Shown here: positions 2,781 to 16,989 of the stretch, in pieces
Position numbering within the stretch: position 1 is the first letter of the stretch
Layout of the letters: each line of letters begins with the position of its first letter
Position numbers and translations under genes: made by a program
The notes under the pieces: generated by a model
The model's input: only the letters and a program-made list of their open reading frames with translations
Told to the model about the DNA's origin: nothing
Databases searched by the model: none
From: Ornithinimicrobium pekingense DSM 21552
GTDB taxonomy: Bacteria > Actinomycetota > Actinomycetes > Actinomycetales > Dermatophilaceae
Assembly: GCF_000421185.1 (NCBI RefSeq)
Contig: NZ_ATWJ01000014.1
Coordinates: forward strand, 62,001-126,000
Reading direction: 5' to 3'
DNA length: 64,000 bases

Positions 2781-5363
2781 TCAGGGCAGCGTGACGAGCC
2801 CCAGCTCGGCGTCGGAGGACAGGTGCTCGTGGCGCGGCAGCACCCGCACGGTCCACCCCAGCGACCCGGTGCGGGCCAGGCGGAGGCTACCGTCGAAGCG
2901 GTGGCGGCCCTCCTCGTAGGACTGGGTCGGCTCCAGGTCGAGGTAGTCGACGTCGGTGAGCGTGTCCTCCGCGTTGGCGCGGCCGTAGGCCATCTGCACC
3001 TTCACCGAGCGCGGGTCCAGGTCGCCCAGCCCGACGTAGGCGTGCACAGCGACCTCGTCACCGATCTGCGGTGCGTCGGACAGGCCCTCGGCGTCGACGT
3101 GGTCGATGCGCACGTGCCGCCAGTTGTGCCTGACCTGTCCCACGTAGCGGGCCAGCGAGCGCGCGCCGGCGTAGTCGTCCTCGGCCACCGCCCAGGCGGC
3201 GTGGGCCGCCGGCCAGTAGAGGGCCTCGGTGTAGTCGCGCACCATACGGTCGGCCAGCACCTTGGGGCCCAGCGTCGACAGGGTGTGGCTGACCTTGTCG
3301 AGCCAGCGCTGCGGCAGGCCCTGGGCGTCGCGGTCGTAGAAGGTCGGCACCACCGTCTTCTCGAGCAGTTCGTAGAGCGCGGCGGCCTCGAGGTCGTCCC
3401 GGCGGTCGGGGTCCTCGACACCGTCGGCGGTCGGGATCGCCCAGCCGTTCTGCCCGTCGTACCACTCGTCCCACCAGCCGTCGAGGATCGAGAGGTTGAG
3501 CGCGCCGTTGAGCGCGGCCTTCATCCCGGACGTGCCGCACGCCTCGAACGGGCGCAGCGGGTTGTTGAGCCAGACGTCGCAGCCCGGGTAGAGCTGCTGG
3601 GCCATCGCGATGTCGTAGTTGGGCAGGTAGATGATCTTCCCGCGGACCTCGGGGTCGTCGGTGAAGCGCACCATCTCCTGGATGAGAGCCTTGCCGGTGT
3701 CGTCGGCCGGGTGAGACTTGCCCGCGATGATCACCTGCACCGGGCGGTCGGGGTCGCACAGCAGCTTCTTGAGGCGCTCGGGGTCGCGCAGCATCAGCGT
3801 CAGACGTTTGTATGTCGCGCCGCGCCGGGCGAAGCCGATGGTCAGCGCGTCGGGGTCGAGGATGTCCTCGGTCCAGCCGAGCTCGGCCTCGGTGGCACCG
3901 CGGTCGAGCAGCGACTGCCGGAAGCGGGCCCGGGCGTCCTCGATGAGCTGCTGGCGCAGCTCGCGCTTGGTGGCCCAGAAGGCGTCGATCGGCACCTCGT
4001 GCACGCGGGTGAAGACCGAGCGGGAGGCCACGTCCGGACCCAGGTGGGCCTTGGCCAGGTCGTAGAGCTTGCGGTCGACCCAGGTGCCGGCGTGCACGCC
4101 GTTGGTCACCGAGCCGATCGGCACCTCGTCGAGGTCGAAGCCCGGCCACAGGCCGCAGAACATCTCGCGGCTGACCGCGCCGTGCAGCTGGGAGACGCCG
4201 TTGACGCGCTGACCCAGCCGCATACCCATGACGGCCATGTTGAAGCGCGAGGCGTCGCCGCCCTCGTAGTCCTCGGCGCCGAGCGCGAGCAACCGCTCCA
4301 GCGGCACACCGGGCAGGGAGTTGCCCTCGTCGCCGAAGTGCGCGGCGATCGCGCCCACGTCGAAGCGGTCGATGCCCGCGGGGACCGGCGTGTGGGTGGT
4401 GAAGACCGTGCCGGCGCGGACCGCCTGCAGCGCCTCGTCGAAGGTCAGGTCGCCGCCGGTGACCAGCTCGCTGATCCGCTCCACGCCCTGGAAGCCGGCG
4501 TGGCCCTCGTTGGTGTGGTAGACCGTCGGCGCCGGCGCACCCGTGATCCGCGAGTAGGCGCGCAGTGCGCGCACGCCGCCGATGCCGAGCAGCATCTCCT
4601 GCTCCAGGCGCTGGTCGCCGCCACCGCCGTAGAGGCGGTTGGTGACCTCACGGCGGGAGGCGTCGTTGGTCTCGACGTCGGAGTCGAGCAGCAGCAGGGG
4701 CACCCGGCCGACCTGGGCACGCCACACGTGGGCGTCCAGGTGGCCCCCGCGCGGCATGGCCAGGCGGATGACGAGCGGGGAGCCGTCCTCCTCGCGCAGC
4801 AGCGACAGCGGCAGGTCGTCCGGATCCAGGACCGGGTAGGACTCCTGCTGCCAGCCGTCGGCGTTGAAGCGCTGGGCGAAGTAGCCCGACTTGTAGAACA
4901 GGCCCACTCCGACGATCGGGATGCCCTGGTCGGAGGCGGCCTTGAGGTGGTCGCCGGCCAGGATGCCCAGGCCGCCGGAGTACTGCGGCAGCACCGAGGT
5001 GATCCCGAACTCCGGGGAGAAGTAGGCGATCGCCTCCAGCGTGCGGCCGTCCCAGCGGCCGGCGCCCTGCTCGTGGTACCAGCGCGGCTTGGTCAGGTAG
5101 CGCTCGAGGTCCTCGTGCGCCTCGTGCACCCGGGTGACGAACTCCTCGTCGGCGGCGAGGCGCTCCATGTCGCGCGTGCGCAGGGAGGAGAGCACGGCGA
5201 CCGGGTCCTGGCCCGTCGACTCCCACAGCCGGGGGTCGATGCCCGCGAACAGGTCGCGGGTCGGCGGGTGCCAGGACCAGCGCAGGTTGAGCGCGAGGTC
5301 GTGGAGCGGGGCAAGGTTGCTGGGGAGCACGGTCCGGACGTGCAACCGACGAATAGCCTTCAC
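2781..5363 (-). CDS. glgP: Alpha-glucan (glycogen) phosphorylase, GT35
   Basis: 860-residue PLP enzyme releasing glucose-1-phosphate from alpha-1,4 glucan ends. The N-terminal part (NLAPLHDLALNLRWSWHP) is the extra domain found in the actinobacterial/archaeal-type alpha-glucan phosphorylases. Further on, YFSPEFGI, VYHTNEGHAGF and the PLP site EACGTSGMKAALNG (Lys615) are present. The start was set at GTG 5363: MKAIRRLHVRTVLPSNLAPL matches the family N-terminus, while the longer open frame upstream runs through the glgE promoter. A TATCCT -10 element lies 8 nt before the GTG and a TGCAAG-N2-CTTGCA palindrome just upstream of it. Divergent from glgE, convergent with glgX. Confidence 0.93.
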   Translation of the reverse strand: MKAIRRLHVRTVLPSNLAPLHDLALNLRWSWHPPTRDLFAGIDPRLWESTGQDPVAVLSSLRTRDMERLAADEEFVTRVHEAHEDLERYLTKPRWYHEQGAGRWDGRTLEAIAYFSPEFGITSVLPQYSGGLGILAGDHLKAASDQGIPIVGVGLFYKSGYFAQRFNADGWQQESYPVLDPDDLPLSLLREEDGSPLVIRLAMPRGGHLDAHVWRAQVGRVPLLLLDSDVETNDASRREVTNRLYGGGGDQRLEQEMLLGIGGVRALRAYSRITGAPAPTVYHTNEGHAGFQGVERISELVTGGDLTFDEALQAVRAGTVFTTHTPVPAGIDRFDVGAIAAHFGDEGNSLPGVPLERLLALGAEDYEGGDASRFNMAVMGMRLGQRVNGVSQLHGAVSREMFCGLWPGFDLDEVPIGSVTNGVHAGTWVDRKLYDLAKAHLGPDVASRSVFTRVHEVPIDAFWATKRELRQQLIEDARARFRQSLLDRGATEAELGWTEDILDPDALTIGFARRGATYKRLTLMLRDPERLKKLLCDPDRPVQVIIAGKSHPADDTGKALIQEMVRFTDDPEVRGKIIYLPNYDIAMAQQLYPGCDVWLNNPLRPFEACGTSGMKAALNGALNLSILDGWWDEWYDGQNGWAIPTADGVEDPDRRDDLEAAALYELLEKTVVPTFYDRDAQGLPQRWLDKVSHTLSTLGPKVLADRMVRDYTEALYWPAAHAAWAVAEDDYAGARSLARYVGQVRHNWRHVRIDHVDAEGLSDAPQIGDEVAVHAYVGLGDLDPRSVKVQMAYGRANAEDTLTDVDYLDLEPTQSYEEGRHRFDGSLRLARTGSLGWTVRVLPRHEHLSSDAELGLVTLP

Positions 5364-5371
5364 GAGGGGCA

Positions 5372-5377
5372 AGGATA
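5372..5377 (-). promoter_or_regulatory. -10 element of glgP
   Basis: TATCCT on the minus strand, 8 nt before GTG 5363, implies a leaderless or nearly leaderless mRNA. Confidence 0.5.
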
Positions 5378-5388
5378 GGCGACCGCGA

Positions 5389-5402
5389 TGCAAGAACTTG
5401 CA
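5389..5402. promoter_or_regulatory. MalR/LacI-type operator between glgP and glgE
   Basis: Perfect inverted repeat TGCAAG-AA-CTTGCA in the 154-bp divergent region, 12 bp upstream of the glgP -10 hexamer. The sequence resembles the CTTGCA-containing operators described for LacI-family maltose regulators of actinobacteria (established for Streptomyces MalR-type sites). Location suggests repression of glgP and possibly of glgE; the regulator is not in this window. Confidence 0.65.
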
Positions 5403-5504
5403 GCGGCGCGGCGTCGGTGCGCCCGGGGCTGCGGACGGACGAGGGCGGACGCCGGTCGGGCGGCGGTCGGGCACGTGCGGATGCTGCGACGCCCGGTTCA
5501 CGGG

Positions 5505-5510
5505 TAGCGT
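5505..5510 (+). promoter_or_regulatory. -10 element of glgE, leaderless
   Basis: TAGCGT is followed by 7 nt and GTG 5518. No Shine-Dalgarno is present before the GTG. Confidence 0.5.
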
Positions 5511-5517
5511 GAGCGGC

Positions 5518-7614
<2,097 letters not shown>

Positions 7615-7627
7615 GGAAGGACCGGCG

Positions 7628-9370
7628 ATGCGAGGCCTCAACCTGCACCAGCCAGGGCTGAAGAACGACCCCGACTGGTTCCGCAAGGCGGTCTTCTACG
7701 AGGTCCTCGTCCGGGCCTTCGAGGACTCCTCCGGCTCCGGCTCCGGCGACTTCAGCGGACTGGTCGGCCGGCTGGACTACCTGCAGTGGCTCGGCGTCGA
7801 CTGCCTGTGGATCCCGCCCTTCTACGCCTCGCCCCTGCGCGACGGCGGGTACGACGTCGCCGACTACACCGCGGTGCTGCCGGAGTTCGGCACGCTGCCG
7901 GACTTCCGCGAGCTGATCAGCCAGGCGCACGCCCGCGGGATCCGGATCATCACCGACCTGGTGATGAACCACACCAGCGACCAGCACCCGTGGTTCCAGG
8001 CCAGCCGTTCCGACCCCGAGGGGCCCTACGGCGACTTCTACGTGTGGTCCGACACCGACGAGAAGTACAGCGACGCGCGCATCATCTTCGTCGACACCGA
8101 GACCTCCAACTGGACCTTCGACGCGGTGCGGCGGCAGTTCTTCTGGCACCGCTTCTTCTCCCACCAGCCCGACCTCAACTTCGAGAACCCGGCGGTGCAG
8201 GAGGCGATGTTCGACGTCGTCCGCTTCTGGATGGACATGGGCATCGACGGCTTCCGGCTCGACGCGGTGCCCTACCTCTTCGAGGAGGAGGGCACCAACT
8301 GCGAGAACCTGCCGAGGACGCACGAGTTCCTCGCGGCGCTGCGCGCGATGGTCGACGAGGAGTACCCCGGGCGGGTGCTGCTGGCCGAGGCCAACCAGAT
8401 GCCGGCCGAGGTGGTCGACTACTACGGCACCGAGGAGGCCCCCGAGTGCCACATGTGCTTCCACTTCCCCGTCATGCCGCGGCTCTACTACGCGCTGCGC
8501 GAGGAGAAGGCCGAGCCGATCATCCGGGTGATGAACGAGACGCCGGCGATCCCCCGGGGCACCCAGTGGGGCACCTTCCTGCGCAACCACGACGAGCTGA
8601 CCCTGGAGATGGTCTCTGCCGAGGAGCGCTCGGCGATGTACGGCTGGTACGCCCCCGACCCGCGGATGCGGGCCAACATCGGCATCCGGCGGCGCCTGGC
8701 GCCGCTGCTGGACAACTCCCGCAGCGAGATCGAGCTGATCAACGCCCTGCTGCTGTCGCTGCCGGGCTCGCCCTGCCTGTACTACGGCGACGAGATCGGC
8801 ATGGGTGACAACATCTGGCTCTCCGACCGTGACGCGGTGCGGACCCCGATGCAGTGGACCCCCGACCGCAACGCGGGCTTCTCGACCGCCGACCCCGGCA
8901 AGCTCTACCTGCCGGTGGTCAGCTCGCTGGTCTACCACTACAACTCCGTCAACGTCGAGGCCCAGATGGCCAGCAGCGCCTCGCTGCTGCACTGGACCCG
9001 CGGGATGCTGCAGGTCCGCGGCGCCCACGACGTCTTCGGCATGGGCGAGTTCCACCTGTGCGAGACCGACAACGACGCGATGCTGGCCTTCGTGCGGGTG
9101 CTGCCCGAGGACGACGAGGGCGAGCGCGACGGCCACCCTGCCGTGCTCTGCGTCAGCAACCTCTCCTCCCGCCCGCAGGCGGCCACCGTCACGGTGCCCG
9201 AGCGGCTCCGCGGCGCCACCGTGCTCGACCTCTTCGGCGGCAACGGGTTCCCGGACATCGCCGACGACGGCACCGTCCGACTGACGATGGGCTCCCGCGA
9301 CTTCTTCTGGCTCGGCCTGGAGCCGCCGGTCGACGACACCCCCGCCCCCCGCGCCAAGGAGGACTCCTGA
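7628..9370 (+). CDS. treS: Trehalose synthase (maltose alpha-D-glucosyltransferase) TreS
   Basis: 580-residue GH13_16 enzyme interconverting trehalose and maltose, the entry to the GlgE pathway. Motifs: [16 protein letters not shown] at the N-terminus, [14 protein letters not shown], nucleophile Asp212 in GFRLDAVPY, acid/base Glu254 in LLAEANQMP, Asp322 in [10 protein letters not shown], and [14 protein letters not shown]. All residues expected for activity are present. The stop codon overlaps the next start (TGATG, ATG at 9370), indicating translational coupling to the maltokinase domain. In many bacteria TreS is fused to or paired with maltokinase; here they are adjacent but separate. Confidence 0.95.
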
Positions 9371-12300
9371 TGGCCACCCTGTCCCCCGGATTCGACGAGT
9401 TCCTGCCGGCCTGGGTCGCGACCCAGCGCTGGTACCGCGGCAAGGGCCGTGAGCCCCGGCTGCAGCGCATCGCCGGCTACCGGTGGGAGGACCCCCAGGG
9501 CGAGGTCGGCCTCGAGGACCACATCCTCGTCGACCGCTCGGGCGAGGAGGAGGTCGTCTACCAGGTGCCGCTGTCCTACCGAGCCGAGCCGGTCGACTTC
9601 CTGGCCGACGCCCTCGTCGCCGTCGCCGAGCACGACGAGCTGGGCACCCGTTACATCTACGACGCCACCCACGACCCGGTGTTCGTCCAGACCCTGCTGC
9701 AGCACATCTACGGCGAGCACGACGTGCCCTCCGTGCGCTCCCGGCGCGTCGTCGCCGGCGCCGCCGCGCCCGCGCTGCACACCTGCCGGGTCCTGCGGGG
9801 CGAGCAGTCCAACACCTCGATCGTGGTGGAGCCGTTCGGCCGGACGCGCCCGGTGATCATCAAGGTGTTCCGGGTGCTGCAGCCCGGCGACAACCCCGAC
9901 GTGACCGTGCCCAGCGCGATCGCGCCGCTGGGCAACCGCATGGTGCCGGGGCCGATCGGGTATGCCGAGGGTCGCTGGCCGCTGCCGGACAGCACCGAGG
10001 CCCGGGGGCACCTCGCCTTCGTCCAGGAGTTCCTGGCCGACACCCGCGACGCCTGGCAGGTGGCGCTGGAGTCCGCCCGGGCCGAGGAGGACTTCGCCGG
10101 GCCGGCCCGCACGCTCGGTGCCGCCACCGCGCGGGTGCACGCCTCGCTGCGGGAGGCGTTCGAGACGCGCACCGGCGACCGGGAGAGCCGCACGACGCTG
10201 GTGGACCAGATGCGCCGACGGGCCGAGGCGGCCTTCGCCGAGGTGCCCGAGCTGGAGTTCTACCGCCAGGACGTCGAGCGGCTCTACGGCGCTCTCGAGG
10301 AGCTCGAGCTGCCGCCGCTGCAGCGGGTGCACGGGGACTACCACCTCGGCCAGGTGCTCGAGGTGCCCGGCCGGGGCTGGGTGCTGCTCGACTTCGAGGG
10401 AGAGCCGATGCGGCCGCTGGCGGAGCGGACCGCGCCCGACCTCGCGCTGCGCGACGTCGCGGGCATGCTGCGCTCGTTCGACTACGCCGCGGCCTCGGTC
10501 GAGCTGGGCGGGGAGGGCGAGCGCCGCGACTGGGCCGACCGGGCCCGCACCGCCTTCCTCCAGGGGTATGCCGAGGAGACCGGGGAGGACCTCGACGCCC
10601 AGGAGCTGCGGTCCCTGCTCGACGCGCTCGAGCTCGACAAGGCGCTCTACGAGGTCGTCTACGAGGCCCGCAACCGTCCCGACTGGATGCCCATCCCCGT
10701 GGGCGCCGTCCAACGCCTCGTCAACCGAGCCGGGCGACGGCGCGACGACGCTGACCTCCGCGCCGCCTCGGGCGACCAGGGGCGGGTCGGCCGTCACCGC
10801 GCCCCGGAGCAGAACGACGTCGCTGCAACCGCCCAGCCCCCTGCGGCTGCCGGACAGCCCCCCGCGGCCGCCGCCGCTACCCGGCAGGGTGGGCCGACGG
10901 GGAGCGAGCCCCACGAGCCGGCCGCCGCCGACTTCGGCGTCGTCCACGCCCCGGGCTCCACCGGTGCCGGGTCGCTCACCGACGACGAGGGCCACGTGCG
11001 CACCGCGGCGCAGCCCGAGGACTACGCCGCCCGACCGGTTCATCACGAGCACCGCACGTCCCCCGTCGGCGAGACCCCCGCCGCCGGCGAGACCCACGCC
11101 GCCGGTGAGACGTCGGCGCCTGCAGCCGGCGTCTCCGGGCAGGAGGCACCCCGCGCCTACCCGCCGGCCAGCGGACGACCCACGAGCGCCAGCGGCGGCG
11201 TGCCGCACGCCCCCATCGCCCCGCCGGCCGCGATGGTCAGCGCGGGGGACGCGCAGGAGCAGCGCCCCGACGAGGAGACGGTGGAGACCACCGTGACCGG
11301 TGGCGAGGAGCCACCGCCCTCGGTGGACGCCAACGAGCCGGCCGAGGTCGAGTGGCGCTACCCCGGCGCGAGCGGCTCTGCCCCCGTCCTCGGTCCGGAC
11401 GGCCGCCCGGTCGACCCCGCCGTGCTGCGTGAGCAGGCGTGGTCCGACGCGCTGTCCTCCCCGGCCGTGGTCACCGGCCAGCTCGTCGGCGACGCCGACG
11501 GGCAGGACGCGACCGACGAGCACGCGGTCCCCGGCACCCGCTCGAGGACGGTGCGCCGCGTGCCGCTGAGCCCGCCCGCCTCGCCGCCGGCACCGCATAC
11601 CCGCCCGCTCGACCTCGAGGAGGCGACCGACGTCGCCTACGGCCTGCACCGCAGCCCGCACCTGGTCCTGGGCCCCCACCCGTTCGAGGGGCACGTGACG
11701 ATCCGGGCCCTGCAGCCCGCCGCCGAGGCCGTCACGGTCCGGCTGGCCGACGGCACCGAGCTGGCGATGACCGAGGAGACCGGCGGCATCTGGGTCGCGG
11801 TCGTGCAGCAGGAGGACGTGCCCGACTACCGCCTCGCCGTCACCGAGCGGGGTGGGCACCGGGTCGTCGACGACGCCTACCGGCACCGCCCGCAGATCGG
11901 CGAGATGGACCTGCACCTGCTCGGCGAGGGCCGCCACGAGGAGCTGTGGAAGGTCCTGGGCTCCCACGTGCGGACCGTGCGGGACGGGATGGGCGAGGTC
12001 ACCGGCACCCACTTCGCGGTCTGGGCGCCCAACGCGCTGGCCGTGCACGTCATCGGTGACTTCAACGACTGGGACGGCAGCACGCACGCGCTGCACGTCC
12101 ACGAGAGCGTCGGCGTGTGGGAGCTCTTCGTCCCCGGGGTCGGGGCAGGGGCCCACTACAAGTACGACATCACCGGCCCGGACGGCACGCGGCGCGCCAA
12201 GACCGACCCGATGGCGCGGGCCACGGAGGTGCCGCCCTTCAACAACTCGGTGGTGACCGTCTCCAGCCACCGGTGGAGCGACGGGGACGCCGCGTGGATG

Positions 12301-15300
12301 GAGCGCCGGGCGCGCACCGACATCCACCACGGCCCGATGAGCATCTACGAGGTGCACCTCGGCTCCTGGCGCCAGGGCCTGAGCTACGAGGAGCTGGCCG
12401 AGCAGCTGGTCTCCTACGTCAGCGAGATGGGCTTCACGCACGTGGAGTTCATGCCAGTCATGCAGCACCCCTACGGCCCCTCGTGGGGCTACCACGTCAC
12501 CGGCTACTACGCGGCCGACAGCCGCTTCGGGCACGAGGACGGGCTGCGCTACCTCATCGACCGCCTGCACCAGGTGGGCGTCGGCGTCATCCTCGACTGG
12601 GTGCCGGGGCACTTCGCGACCGACCCGTGGGCGATGGCGCGCTTCGACGGCACCCCGATCTACGAGCACCCGGACCCGCGCAAGGGCTGGCACCCCGAGT
12701 GGGGCTCCTACATCTTCGACTACGGCCGCCCCGAGGTGCGCAACTTCCTCGTCGCCAACGCCAGCTACTGGCTGGAGGAGTTCCACGCCGACGGCCTGCG
12801 CGTCGACGGCGTGGCCTCGATGCTCTACCTCGACTACTCCCGCGAGGCCGGCCAGTGGATCCCCAACCGCCACGGCGGGCGGGAGAACCTCGAGGCGGTC
12901 GAGCTGCTGCAGGAGACCAACGCCACGGCATACCGGCGCAGTCCCGGGGTGGTCATGATCGCCGAGGAGTCGACCTCCTGGCCCGGCGTCACGGCGCCGA
13001 CCGACGAGGGCGGCCTGGGCTTCGGCTTCAAGTGGAACATGGGCTGGATGCACGACACGCTCGGCTACCTCGCCGAGCTGCCCTACTCCCGCTCCCACCA
13101 CCACCACGCGCTGACGTTCTCGCTGGTCTACGCCTTCAGCGAGAAGTACATCCTGCCGATCAGCCACGACGAGGTCGTGCACGGCAAGGGCTCGCTGGTG
13201 CGCAAGATGGCCGGCGACGCGTGGCAGAAGTTCGCCACCACCCGCGCCTTCCTGGCCTACCAGTGGTCCCACCCGGGCAAGCAGCTGCTGTTCATGGGCT
13301 CCGAGTTCGCCCAGGCCCGCGAGTGGGCCGACGGCGGGACCCTGTCGTGGGAGCTCACCGAGCAGCCGATGCACGCCGGCGTCCAGCGCCTGGTCCGCGA
13401 CCTCAACCGCCTCTACGACGAGCTGCCGGCGCTGTGGCAGATCGACCACCACGAGGACGGCTTCGCCTGGCTCGACGCCAACGACGCCTCCCGCAACACC
13501 TACTCCTACCTGCGCTGGGGCAACGAGGGACCAGACGGGCTGCGCCCGGTGGTCGCGGCCATCGTCAACTTCAGCGGCATCGCCCAGGAGCGGGTGCACG
13601 TCGGGCTGCCCTACGGCGGCCGCTGGCGCGAGGTGCTCAACACCGACGCCGAGCACTACGGCGGGTCCGGCCAGGGCAACATGGGCTTCGTCGAGGCCTA
13701 TGACGTCGAGCACCAGCGCCAGCCGTTCTCGGCCCTGGTGACCGTGCCCCCGATGGCGGCGGTCTGGCTCGTGCCCGACCCGGTGGAGCCGGAGCCGGCA
13801 GCCCTGGAGGAGCCGGCCGAGCAGGACGCCGGGGCCACGGCCGGAGGGGCCGACGCCGGGGAGCCCGGCGGGCGCCACGACCGCGCCGGCGAGCCGGCCC
13901 GGGCCGAGGACCTCATCGACGTCGAGGCGGTCGTGCGGGCCTACACCGAGATCGTCCCCGACCCCGAGGACGTGGACCAGCAGGTCGCGTTCGGCACCTC
14001 GGGCCACCGCGGCAGCTCCCTGGACGGCGCGTTCAACGAGCACCACATCCTGGCCACGACGCAGGCGATCTGCGAGTACCGCACCGCCCAGGGCATCGAG
14101 GGTCCGCTGTTCATCGGCAAGGACACCCACGCACTCTCCGGGCCGGCCTGGCGCACCGCGCTGGAGGTGCTGGTCGGCAACGGCGTGGACGTGTGCATCG
14201 ACACCGGCGGGGCCGAGGCGTACACGCCGACCCCGGCGGTGTCCCGGGCGATCCTGGCGCACAACCGTGAGGTCGAGGGCGCGGTCGGGACCGCCGACGG
14301 CATCGTGGTGACGCCGTCGCACAACCCGCCCCGGGACGGCGGCTTCAAGTACAACCCGCCGCACGGGGGACCGGCCGACACCGACGCGACCGGCTGGATC
14401 GCCGACCGTGCCAACGAGCTGCTCCGTGCCGGCCTGGAGGGTGTGCGCCGGGTGCCCTTCGACCAGGCCCTGGAGGCGGCGGAGCCCTACGACTTCATGG
14501 GCGAGTACGTCCGTGCCCTCCCGCGGGTCGTCGACATCGACGCGATCCGCGAGGCCGGCGTGCGGATCGGCGCCGGACCGCTGGGCGGCGCCTCGGTCGA
14601 CTACTGGCAGGCGATCGCCGAGGAGCACGACCTCGACCTGACGGTCGTCAACCCCCGGGTCGACCCGACCTGGAGCTTCATGACGCTGGACTGGGACGGC
14701 AGGATCCGCATGGACTGCTCCTCCCCCGACGCCATGGCCTCCCTCATCGACATGATGCAGGGGGAGTCGTCGTTCGACGTGGCGACCGGCAACGACGCGG
14801 ACGCCGACCGCCACGGGATCGTCACCCCAGACGCCGGCCTGATGAACCCCAACCACTACCTCGCGGTCGCGATCGACTACCTCTACGGCGGGGCCCGCCC
14901 TGGCTGGCCCGAGGGGACGGCCATCGGCAAGACCCTCGTGTCGTCGTCGATGATCGACCGGGTCGCGGCCGCCCTGGGCCGGGAGCTGGTCGAGGTGCCG
15001 GTGGGCTTCAAGTGGTTCGTGCCCGGCCTGCTCGACGGCTCGGTCGGCTTCGGCGGCGAGGAGTCGGCGGGCGCGTCCTTCCTCTGCCGCGACGGCTCGG
15101 TCTGGACGACGGACAAGGACGGCATCATCCTGGCGCTGCTGGCGGCCGAGATGATCGCCCGGACCGGCAGGAGCCCCTCCCAGCGGTATGCCGAGCTCGT
15201 CGCCGAGCACGGCGACCCCGCCTACGCCCGGGTCGACGCCCCGGCAGACCGGGCCGCCAAGGACAAGCTCAAGAAGCTCACGGCCTCCGACGTCACCGCG

Positions 15301-15528
15301 GACACCGTCGCGGGCGAGGCGGTCACCGCCGTGCTGACCGAGGCGCCCGGCAACGGCGCGTCCATCGGCGGGCTCAAGGTCACCACGAAGTCCGCCTGGT
15401 TCGCCGCGCGGCCGTCGGGGACCGAGGACGTCTACAAGATCTACGCGGAGTCGTTCCGGGGCCCGGAGCACCTGGCCCGGGTCCAGGCCGAGGCGCAGCA
15501 GCTGGTGGACGCCGCACTGCAGGACTGA
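9370..15528 (+). CDS. mak-glgB-pgm: Trifunctional maltokinase - glycogen branching enzyme - phosphoglucomutase fusion
   Basis: One uninterrupted frame of 2052 residues. Module 1 (about 1-452) is full-length maltokinase: [14 protein letters not shown] cap, EQSNTS, catalytic loop [10 protein letters not shown] (Asp323) and metal-binding DFEGEP (Asp341). A Pro/Ala/Glu-rich, probably disordered linker covers about 453-745. Module 2 (about 746-1470) is a complete GlgB with N1 domain, [10 protein letters not shown], nucleophile Asp1146 in LRVDGVAS, Glu1199/1200 in MIAEEST and Asp1267 in [11 protein letters not shown]. An acidic linker (1471-1501) follows. Module 3 (about 1502-2052) is alpha-D-phosphohexomutase colinear with Escherichia coli Pgm, with active Ser1650 in TPSHNPP, metal loop Asp1809/1811/1813, EESAG (1897-1901) and RPSGTED (from Arg2014). 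No degenerate active site is seen. The ATG overlaps the treS stop. It would couple maltose phosphorylation, branching and glucose-1-P/glucose-6-P exchange. Confidence 0.93.
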
Positions 15529-15584
15529 CCGCACGCTGACGCGGGTCGGCCGGTCGCGCGGCTGGGCGACCCGTCCTGCTCGGG

Positions 15585-15590
15585 TAGGGT
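15585..15590 (+). promoter_or_regulatory. -10 element upstream of MFS gene and its micro-ORF
   Basis: TAGGGT, followed by 8 nt and GTG 15599. The predicted start of transcription coincides with the micro-ORF start, not with the MFS start. Confidence 0.5.
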
Positions 15591-15598
15591 GGCCCGCC

Positions 15599-15649
15599 GT
15601 GACCCCTCCCCCGCACGCGACCGCCCTCGCGTGCCGGGGCAGCCGGTGA
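15599..15649 (+). CDS. Leaderless 16-codon micro-ORF, coupled to the MFS gene
   Basis: GTG 15599 lies 8 nt after TAGGGT, the same geometry as the leaderless genes in this window. It encodes VTPPPHATALACRGSR and stops with TGA at 15647-15649, which overlaps the GTG start of the transporter as GTGA. This arrangement suggests a leader peptide that delivers ribosomes to the downstream start. Coding is inferred from signals only. Confidence 0.45.
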   Translation: MTPPPHATALACRGSR

Positions 15650-16989
15650 GGCGCCTGCGGCGCGGGCTGCTCGACCCACGGCCGCTGCGCGTCAGCACCG
15701 ACTTCCGGCGACTGTGGGCCAGCGGCCTGGTCTCCGGCCTGGCCGCCCAGATGTCGGTGGTCGCGGTCCTCTTCCAGGTGTGGGACCTGACCCGCAGCCC
15801 CGTCTGGGTCGGCACGATCGGCCTGGTCCAGGCGGTCCCGATGATCGTGCTCGGCCTGCTCGGCGGCGCCGTGGCGGACGCCCTGGACCGCCGCGACGTC
15901 GTGGTGCGGACGACGGCCCTGCAGGCGCTCGTCGCCGCCGGCCTGGCGGTGCAGGCCGCGCTCGACGTCGGCTCCCTGGCCCTGGTCCTCGGCCTGGTGG
16001 CGTTGCAGTCCGGGGCCGCGGCCCTCGGCGCCCCGGCCCGGCGCACCTTCGTCAAGCGGCTGTTGCCGGCCCACCTGCTGGCGGCCGGCGTCGCCCTGCA
16101 CATGATCGGCTTCCAGGCAGCGATGATGGCCGGCCCCGCGCTCGGCGGCCTCACGATCGCCGCGGCCGGCATCGGCGCGTGCTACGCGCTCAACGCGGCG
16201 AGCTTCCTCGTGGCGCTGTGGGCGGCATACCTGCTCCCCCCGATGCCGCCGGAGGGCGCGCGCGGGGCCGCCGGGCAGGAGGACCGGATGGCCGCCGACG
16301 CCGCGGAGGGCGGCGGCGACAAGCCCACCGGCGCCCCGCAGCCACGGCGTCGGCTACGGCACCGGGTGCGAGCCGTCCTCGCCTCGCTGGCGGACGGCAT
16401 CCGGCTGACGGTGCGACGCCCGGTGCTGCGCGGCAGCTTCGCCGTCGACCTGGCCGCGACGCTGCTGGCCTTCCCGGTGGCGCTGTTCCCGATGATCAAC
16501 GAGCTGCGCTTCGGTGGCGACCCGACGACGCTGGGACTGTTCCTGTCCGCGGTCGCGGTGGGCGGGTTGCTGGCCGGGGTCGCCTCCGGGCTGGTGACCC
16601 GCTCGGCCCACCTGGGCTGGATCCAGCTCGGAGCTGCCGTCGTGTGGGGTGCGGCGCTGGCCGGGTTCGGGCTCGCGGGGCCGCTGTGGCTGGCGCTGAC
16701 CTTCCTCGCCGTCGCGGGTGCGGCGGACACGACGTCGGTCACCTCGCGTGCCGCGATGGTGCAGCTGGACACCGAGGACCGGATGCTCGGCCGGGTCTCC
16801 TCCGTGGAGCACGTGATCGGCATCGCGGGCCCCGACCTCGGCAACTTCCGCGCGGGCGTGGTGGCGGGGCTGTGGTCACCCGCGGTCGCGGCCTTCAGCG
16901 GAGGGGTGCTGTGCGTGGTCGCCGTGGTGGCGGTGGGACTGACCCACCCGCAGCTGGCACGCTTCCGCGTGCAGGGGCAGCGCCCCTGA
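15646..16989 (+). CDS. MFS transporter (EntS-like exporter)
   Basis: About 447 residues with roughly twelve hydrophobic helices. DFRRLWASGLVSGLAAQ at the first helix, LLGGAVADALDRRDVVV (the MFS loop 2-3 motif) and a charged central loop (about residues 205-245) point to the enterobactin-exporter-like MFS_3 branch. The substrate is unknown. Candidate GTG starts are 15589, 15631 and 15646; 15589 overlaps the -10 element, so I chose 15646, which has GGGG upstream and overlaps the micro-ORF stop. It follows the glycogen operon but has its own promoter. Confidence 0.8.
   Translation: MRRLRRGLLDPRPLRVSTDFRRLWASGLVSGLAAQMSVVAVLFQVWDLTRSPVWVGTIGLVQAVPMIVLGLLGGAVADALDRRDVVVRTTALQALVAAGLAVQAALDVGSLALVLGLVALQSGAAALGAPARRTFVKRLLPAHLLAAGVALHMIGFQAAMMAGPALGGLTIAAAGIGACYALNAASFLVALWAAYLLPPMPPEGARGAAGQEDRMAADAAEGGGDKPTGAPQPRRRLRHRVRAVLASLADGIRLTVRRPVLRGSFAVDLAATLLAFPVALFPMINELRFGGDPTTLGLFLSAVAVGGLLAGVASGLVTRSAHLGWIQLGAAVVWGAALAGFGLAGPLWLALTFLAVAGAADTTSVTSRAAMVQLDTEDRMLGRVSSVEHVIGIAGPDLGNFRAGVVAGLWSPAVAAFSGGVLCVVAVVAVGLTHPQLARFRVQGQRP

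Follow-up and report, generated by a model that had tools for sequence, protein, structure and literature searches.

A gene of Ornithinimicrobium pekingense that joins maltokinase, branching enzyme and phosphoglucomutase in one reading frame

In Ornithinimicrobium pekingense DSM 21552, a single gene encodes three enzymes of alpha-glucan metabolism as one chain: a maltokinase (Mak), a branching enzyme (GlgB) and a phosphoglucomutase (Pgm). The stretch of DNA analysed here, hereafter the window, comprises 64,000 nucleotides of contig NZ_ATWJ01000014.1 (positions 62,001 to 126,000 of assembly GCF_000421185.1), and the gene occupies its positions 9370-15528. As the initial annotation had proposed, this frame is uninterrupted: it translates into 2,052 residues without an internal stop, giving a protein with a calculated mass of 222.7 kDa. 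I conclude that it is a genuine gene fusion, and that it likely makes one trifunctional polypeptide, which would tether Pgm to the enzymes of the GlgE pathway. Its parts are as follows.

9370..10725, plus strand: Mak module, residues 1-452, comprising Mak_N_cap and kinase, with HGD at 321-323 and DFE at 341-343 (domain and PDB matches, motifs)
10726..11604, plus strand: linker 1, residues 453-745, rich in Ala, Pro and Gly, with P, A, G, S, T, E, D and Q making up 75% (composition)
11182..11235, plus strand: linker 1 motif, residues 605-622, 18 residues (pattern comparison among linkers)
11605..13770, plus strand: GlgB module including the N domain and CBM48, residues 746-1467 (Pfam, NCBIfam and PDB matches)
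13771..13869, plus strand: linker 2, residues 1468-1500, 33 codons, the final one GGC, at the place of the pgm start codon in most split relatives (junction comparison)
13870..15528, plus strand: Pgm module, residues 1501-2052, plus stop (Pfam, NCBIfam and PDB matches)

Each module is recognised by profile and by PDB relatives. Pfam places Mak_N_cap at residues 15-102, GlgB_N, CBM48 and amylase domains at 751-1469 and PGM domains I-IV at 1540-2041, while PDB relatives span 14-454 (maltokinase), 746-1469 (GlgB) and 1490-2049 (Pgm). The scores lie above the cut-offs of the respective models: 90.3 bits against 22 for Mak_N_cap (PF18085); 919.6 against 741 (NCBIfam PRK05402) and 862.3 against 463.95 (TIGR01515) for GlgB; and 882.2 against 778.05 for Pgm (TIGR01132, the type dependent on alpha-D-glucose-1,6-bisphosphate). 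Every catalytic residue that the initial annotation had named sits in its motif. GlgB carries D1146, E1199/E1200 and D1267, which I take to be the catalytic Asp/Glu/Asp of this GH13 enzyme; Pgm carries TPSHN at 1648 (S1650) and DADAD at 1809 (D1809/D1811/D1813), presumably the phosphoserine loop and the DxDxD metal loop. The kinase has HGD at 321 (D323) and DFE at 341 (D341), with roles as described for mycobacterial Mak in the available text of PMC4306142.

At a G+C content of 73.5%, an open frame on its own is weak proof, since a longer antisense open reading frame (2,387 amino acids, 8938-16101, minus strand) lies over the same DNA and spans the entire fusion gene. That antisense frame is probably a shadow of G+C-rich codon usage. 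The sense frame is judged genuine, and a chance open frame is ruled out, on three grounds: codon-position G+C, selection on the modules, and the same Mak-GlgB-Pgm frame in 10 further genomes. G+C at third codon positions is 0.87-1.00 across all 90-codon blocks of the sense frame, with 0.90 in linker 1 and 0.94 in linker 2. The ratio of nonsynonymous to synonymous substitution (dN/dS), calculated from five pairs of fused species, three of which share members, is 0.15-0.47 for Mak, 0.04-0.19 for GlgB and 0.09-0.22 for Pgm, which indicates purifying selection on each module, strong in the case of GlgB. The corresponding values are 0.40-0.66 for linker 1 and 0.5-5.5 for linker 2, the latter noisy on its 22-33 codons; judged by their composition, both linkers look disordered.

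Comparison within the genus reveals how the third module was joined. The set comprises 31 genomes, the window's included, of a genus that contains Ornithinimicrobium laminariae. In 11 of them, again counting the window's, a single frame runs through GlgB and Pgm; the other 20 have a separate pgm just downstream of glgB. Of these 20, 17 were read in the comparison and three (G014, G016 and G024, with frame breaks elsewhere in their loci) were inspected by eye. Among the readable 17, pgm and glgB are in frame with each other in two genomes and in different frames in 15; in all 17, pgm starts with ATG or GTG behind a Shine-Dalgarno-like core, five to seven bases long in 14 and four bases long in G007, G012 and G013. 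The three genomes inspected by eye likewise have an ATG at pgm behind a Shine-Dalgarno-like stretch, which makes 20 of 20 split genomes in all. By contrast, a start codon is missing from the old pgm position in every one of the 11 fused genomes; in the window the codon there is GGC. Nor does a stop separate the modules, as expected of a true translational fusion. Since the old start codon is gone in all 11, Pgm cannot start where the split relatives start it. The loss of this codon and of its Shine-Dalgarno sequence also argues against an internal start in the linker at 1471-1501, a possibility that had been raised for the window.

The frame uniting Mak and GlgB is present in 26 of the 31 genus genomes; among the remaining five, the contig ends before mak in G009, G022 and G023, and frames are broken in G016 and G024. 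Positions 4-475 of the NCBIfam model PRK14705 match the Mak module and positions 502-1222 match the GlgB module, in the same order, although the whole protein scores 1326.9 against a curated cut-off of 2376 (PRK14705/NF011293). The initial annotation had considered the whole chain novel. That view does not hold for the Mak-GlgB half, which is a known architecture; it stands for the C-terminal addition of Pgm, which alone looks new and has no counterpart among the matches listed from outside the genus. The Mak-GlgB frame itself does occur beyond the genus: of 80 loci compared, it was seen only in one genus member (L001) and in Leekyejoonella (L002). In addition, one of the 15 family loci fetched (L163, genome G166, from another genus of the family) has Mak-GlgB in one frame with pgm about 2.4 kb further on. 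A GlgB-Pgm fusion was found outside the genus neither among the matches listed for the family sample (186 genomes, 179 matching) nor in the order sample (149 genomes, 144 matching; longest other open frame 1,120 amino acids) or the class sample (138 genomes, 80 matching; longest other open frame 954 amino acids); these draws overlap and include the window's genome, and fusions may occur elsewhere. Long frames over the pgm region (1,023-1,501 amino acids) in 15 family genomes were considered as candidate fusions and rejected. They are chance extensions in DNA of high G+C, since glgB and pgm lie in different open frames in all 15, and a 1,492-amino-acid frame in G022 is the same kind of extension. 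The accessible text of open-licence papers yielded no Mak-GlgB-Pgm chain; the fusions it does mention are TreS-Mak, GlgA-GlgB and GlgB-MalQ, and a pgm gene is noted in a cluster with glg genes.

Two minor observations belong with these loci. Frame breaks affect pgm in G014 (L125), treS and glgB in G016 (L127), several genes in G024 (L135) and treS in G008 (L119), and could be sequencing indels or decay. A contig labelled Helicobacter cetorum (L007) carries adjacent glgB and pgm with 48% and 56% identity to those of the window; its label may be wrong.

The history of the Pgm join was reconstructed from a concatenated TreS, GlgB and Pgm tree of 28 genus rows and four outgroup rows, a quick tree supported only by the Shimodaira-Hasegawa-like approximate likelihood ratio test, in which G009, G022 and G023 lack TreS and G008 contributes two residues of it. 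All fused genomes fall within one clade of 17 genomes, where they form four clusters, each adjoining split genomes: G030 next to G026; the window's genome and G011 next to G001 and G022; G018 and G029 next to G008; and six fused genomes next to G012 and G013. Whether mapped on the concatenated tree or on those of GlgB or Pgm, the fused labels require four changes. Forcing the fused genomes into one clade costs 338 log-likelihood units and is rejected (approximately unbiased test, p = 0.000105). The junctions add a second line of evidence. Whereas the GlgB-Pgm linker of the 11 fused genomes varies between 22 and 44 residues, the six split genomes of the clade have GlgB tails of 91-173 residues, and split G014, which is absent from the tree, has one of 122. 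Homologous tails are found in split G008, G012, G013 and G016 (best E 7e-27) and are absent from the fused sister groups. G008 is sister to one fused cluster and G012/G013 to another; on the simplest account, the tail was ancestral here and suffered two or more deletions. I infer that the Pgm fusion arose repeatedly in this one clade, on a minimum of two occasions and most simply on four, by in-frame deletions that would have removed the GlgB tail, the stop, the Shine-Dalgarno sequence and the pgm start.

The same 17-genome clade is distinguished by the region between Mak and GlgB. Linker 1 measures 217-304 residues in 17 clade linkers, compared with 25-107 in nine others. Sixteen of the 17 come from tree members whose locus includes mak (all but one of the 17 members), and the last from G014, assigned to the clade on the strength of its GlgB identity and its tail; five further genomes yielded no linker that could be used. 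All 17 clade linkers, fused or split, contain an ASGGxPHAPVPPP-like motif (HAP[VIL]xxP), found in none of the nine others. Shuffled linkers would be expected to yield 0.06 occurrences in total, a figure to be read knowing that the pattern was picked after the linkers had been inspected. The motif is conserved within an otherwise fast-evolving linker (loci L112-L141) and is present in two copies in three genomes. Among the other proteins of the window's genome it has weak matches only, the best at E 0.07. It may be a docking site. The stem of the clade is also much longer in the tree of GlgB (0.55 changes per column) than in that of Pgm (0.073), suggesting that GlgB evolved rapidly before the fusions took place.

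The fusion gene lies beside genes of the GlgE pathway. The order is glgE, treS and then the fusion gene, whose ATG (9370-9372) overlaps the TGA of treS (9368-9370) by one base; glgP lies upstream and is divergent.

7628..9370, plus strand: treS, trehalose synthase, its stop overlapping the fusion ATG (open reading frame, profile match)
5134..7614, plus strand: glgE, maltosyltransferase open reading frame; the domain match begins at its residue 165 and the true start is probably further in (open reading frame, domain match)
2781..5813, minus strand: glgP, alpha-glucan phosphorylase open reading frame, divergent; true start probably further in (open reading frame, profile match)

According to the available text of PMC4981310, mycobacteria obtain maltose-1-phosphate from TreS-Pep2 and also from ADP-glucose and glucose-1-phosphate (G1P) through GlgA, renamed GlgM; GlgE polymerises maltose-1-phosphate and GlgB branches the product. 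The mycobacterial TreS and Pep2 are described as forming a complex (PMC6509496, available text). In the present genome, GlgC is encoded elsewhere, and a GlgA-type neighbour matches GlgM (6tvp, E 1.2e-116) almost from end to end. At a matching threshold of E 0.001, Pgm, GlgB and Mak have no other close copy in the 3.85-Mb genome; the second-best matches are 29% identical for Pgm and 34% identical for GlgB, and Mak has none. Because the genome has no other close Pgm, the fused one probably serves the whole cell, unless its 29% identical relative shares the activity.

From these elements a working of the chain can be proposed. The N-terminal maltokinase would convert maltose supplied by TreS into maltose-1-phosphate, the central branching enzyme would act with its glucan-binding CBM48, and the C-terminal Pgm would interconvert G1P and glucose-6-phosphate. 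By analogy with the separate mycobacterial enzymes, the kinase end would dock to TreS, while CBM48 would keep the chain on the glucan and thereby place Pgm at the site of alpha-glucan synthesis. Pgm localised in this way could either supply G1P to GlgC and GlgM or clear the G1P released by GlgP. The initial annotation had seen the chain as a link between the GlgE route and the GlgP/G1P route; since GlgC and a GlgM relative are encoded in the genome, G1P could instead feed maltose-1-phosphate synthesis, the direction of flow and any channelling being part of the proposal. More tentatively, the roughly four independent joinings of Pgm in one clade might have been favoured by tethering of the sole close Pgm to a TreS-docked, glucan-bound complex, in a clade primed by an earlier change, namely the accelerated GlgB stem and the long linker 1 with its possible docking motif.

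Several observations weigh against this picture and have to be set beside the alternatives. I consider it unlikely that Pgm was joined just once, whether this happened at the base of the 17-genome clade and was undone four times, or the single fusion was passed on by recombination. One gain with four reversals makes five changes, only one more than four gains. Well-supported (starred) branches force four changes in the GlgB tree and only two in the Pgm tree, and although five short sub-region trees of 20 rows again need four or five, their starred branches force one to three. The fused lineages have junction residues in common, around G-R-H-(P)-R-A-G. Furthermore, G007 (L118) has a pgm that joins the 17-genome clade and a GlgB that does not, a pattern that suggests exchange of pgm within the genus. 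What speaks for separate origins is that the best GlgB and Pgm trees, built from either side of the junction, need four changes each, and that 0 of 200 bootstrap trees of either need only one. A reversal must, moreover, rebuild a stop, a Shine-Dalgarno sequence, a start codon and the M-A-R-H-E-R-A-G beginning of Pgm, which is also that of G010, a split genome outside the clade, as well as the homologous tail in G008, G012, G013 and G016. A serious rival has nearly an even chance of being right: the fusions may be neutral by-products, made when operon neighbours are joined by chance deletion, hard to undo and tolerated thanks to flexible linkers, with no benefit from tethering. In the split genomes pgm lies just downstream of mak-glgB, so that a single deletion suffices; linker 2 is short and variable, with a dN/dS about neutral on its few codons; and 20 of the 31 genus genomes do without the join. 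Against neutrality stands its uneven occurrence, with several apparent gains in one clade and none among the matches listed for 155 other genomes of the family, even though glgB and pgm are immediate neighbours, in this order, in 14 of the 15 family loci fetched.

The remaining objections concern the protein itself. Long linkers rich in Ala, Pro and Gly are often protease-sensitive, and the chain could be cut by a protease, or also be translated from internal starts, so that the cell would hold separate enzymes; this is rather improbable. A scan from 180 bases before to 120 bases after the junction found an in-frame start with a Shine-Dalgarno-like core of at least four bases in 6 of the 11 fused genomes, including, in G011, a GTG with GGAGG located 24 bases upstream of the Pgm module. 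Cores of at least four bases precede 121 of 918 in-frame start codons inside GlgB, cores of at least five bases only 9 of 918, and near the junction a core of at least five is found in G011 alone. The window has no in-frame ATG between residues 1462 and 1710. A weak internal start may exist elsewhere, but the original pgm start has been lost throughout. The activity of the modules is a further point, for fused domains can be dead, as is reported of GlgB in the GlgA-GlgB of Waddlia (PMC7935935, available text), and the 29% identical relative of Pgm, a hexose-phosphate mutase, might share its activity. Finally, an assembly or sequencing error that joined two genes is very hard to credit. Frame breaks do occur in genus genomes (G014, G016, G024 and treS of G008), but the same join, with linkers of differing length and with the start codon gone too, is found in ten further genomes, four of them single-contig, which answers the question of sequencing error raised at the outset. 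My preferred reading is still a single polypeptide that would tether Pgm.

The chain can be compared with several known systems. Closest in architecture is the Mak-GlgB fusion described by NF011293/PRK14705 (1,224 positions), in which a kinase likewise precedes GlgB; that model lacks Pgm, and the window protein differs from it by a much longer first linker and a score below the cut-off. TreS-Mak (TreS-Pep2) fusions and the mycobacterial TreS:Pep2 complex combine the same kinase with TreS as part of the same pathway (PMC6509496, PMC2885305, available text), whereas in the window TreS is a protein of its own, its gene overlapping the fusion gene by one base, and the kinase has GlgB and Pgm as its fusion partners. 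The GlgA-GlgB proteins of Waddliaceae and Criblamydiaceae also combine a branching enzyme with another enzyme of glucan synthesis (PMC7935935, available text), but the partner is a different one and their GlgB part is reported to be apparently non-functional, unlike the strongly constrained GlgB of the window. In Neisseria suica, glgB-malQ is a further GlgB fusion in glycogen metabolism, with a glucanotransferase as partner (PMC11046441, available text). The closest sequences are those of the split genus relatives, which have the same gene order and a pgm with a stop, a Shine-Dalgarno sequence and a start codon of its own.

Sister species with split and fused versions of the three enzymes amount to a natural and apparently repeated fusion experiment, and because both versions exist, the effect of tethering on alpha-glucan metabolism is directly testable. 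As an apparently repeated event in sister species, the fusion is of more interest than one isolated oddity would be. Should the chain persist intact in cells, the sole close Pgm, a general sugar-phosphate enzyme, is bound to the enzymes of glycogen synthesis, and storage and central metabolism would be tied together in an unexpected manner. In annotated genomes, such chains could carry the name of one module only.

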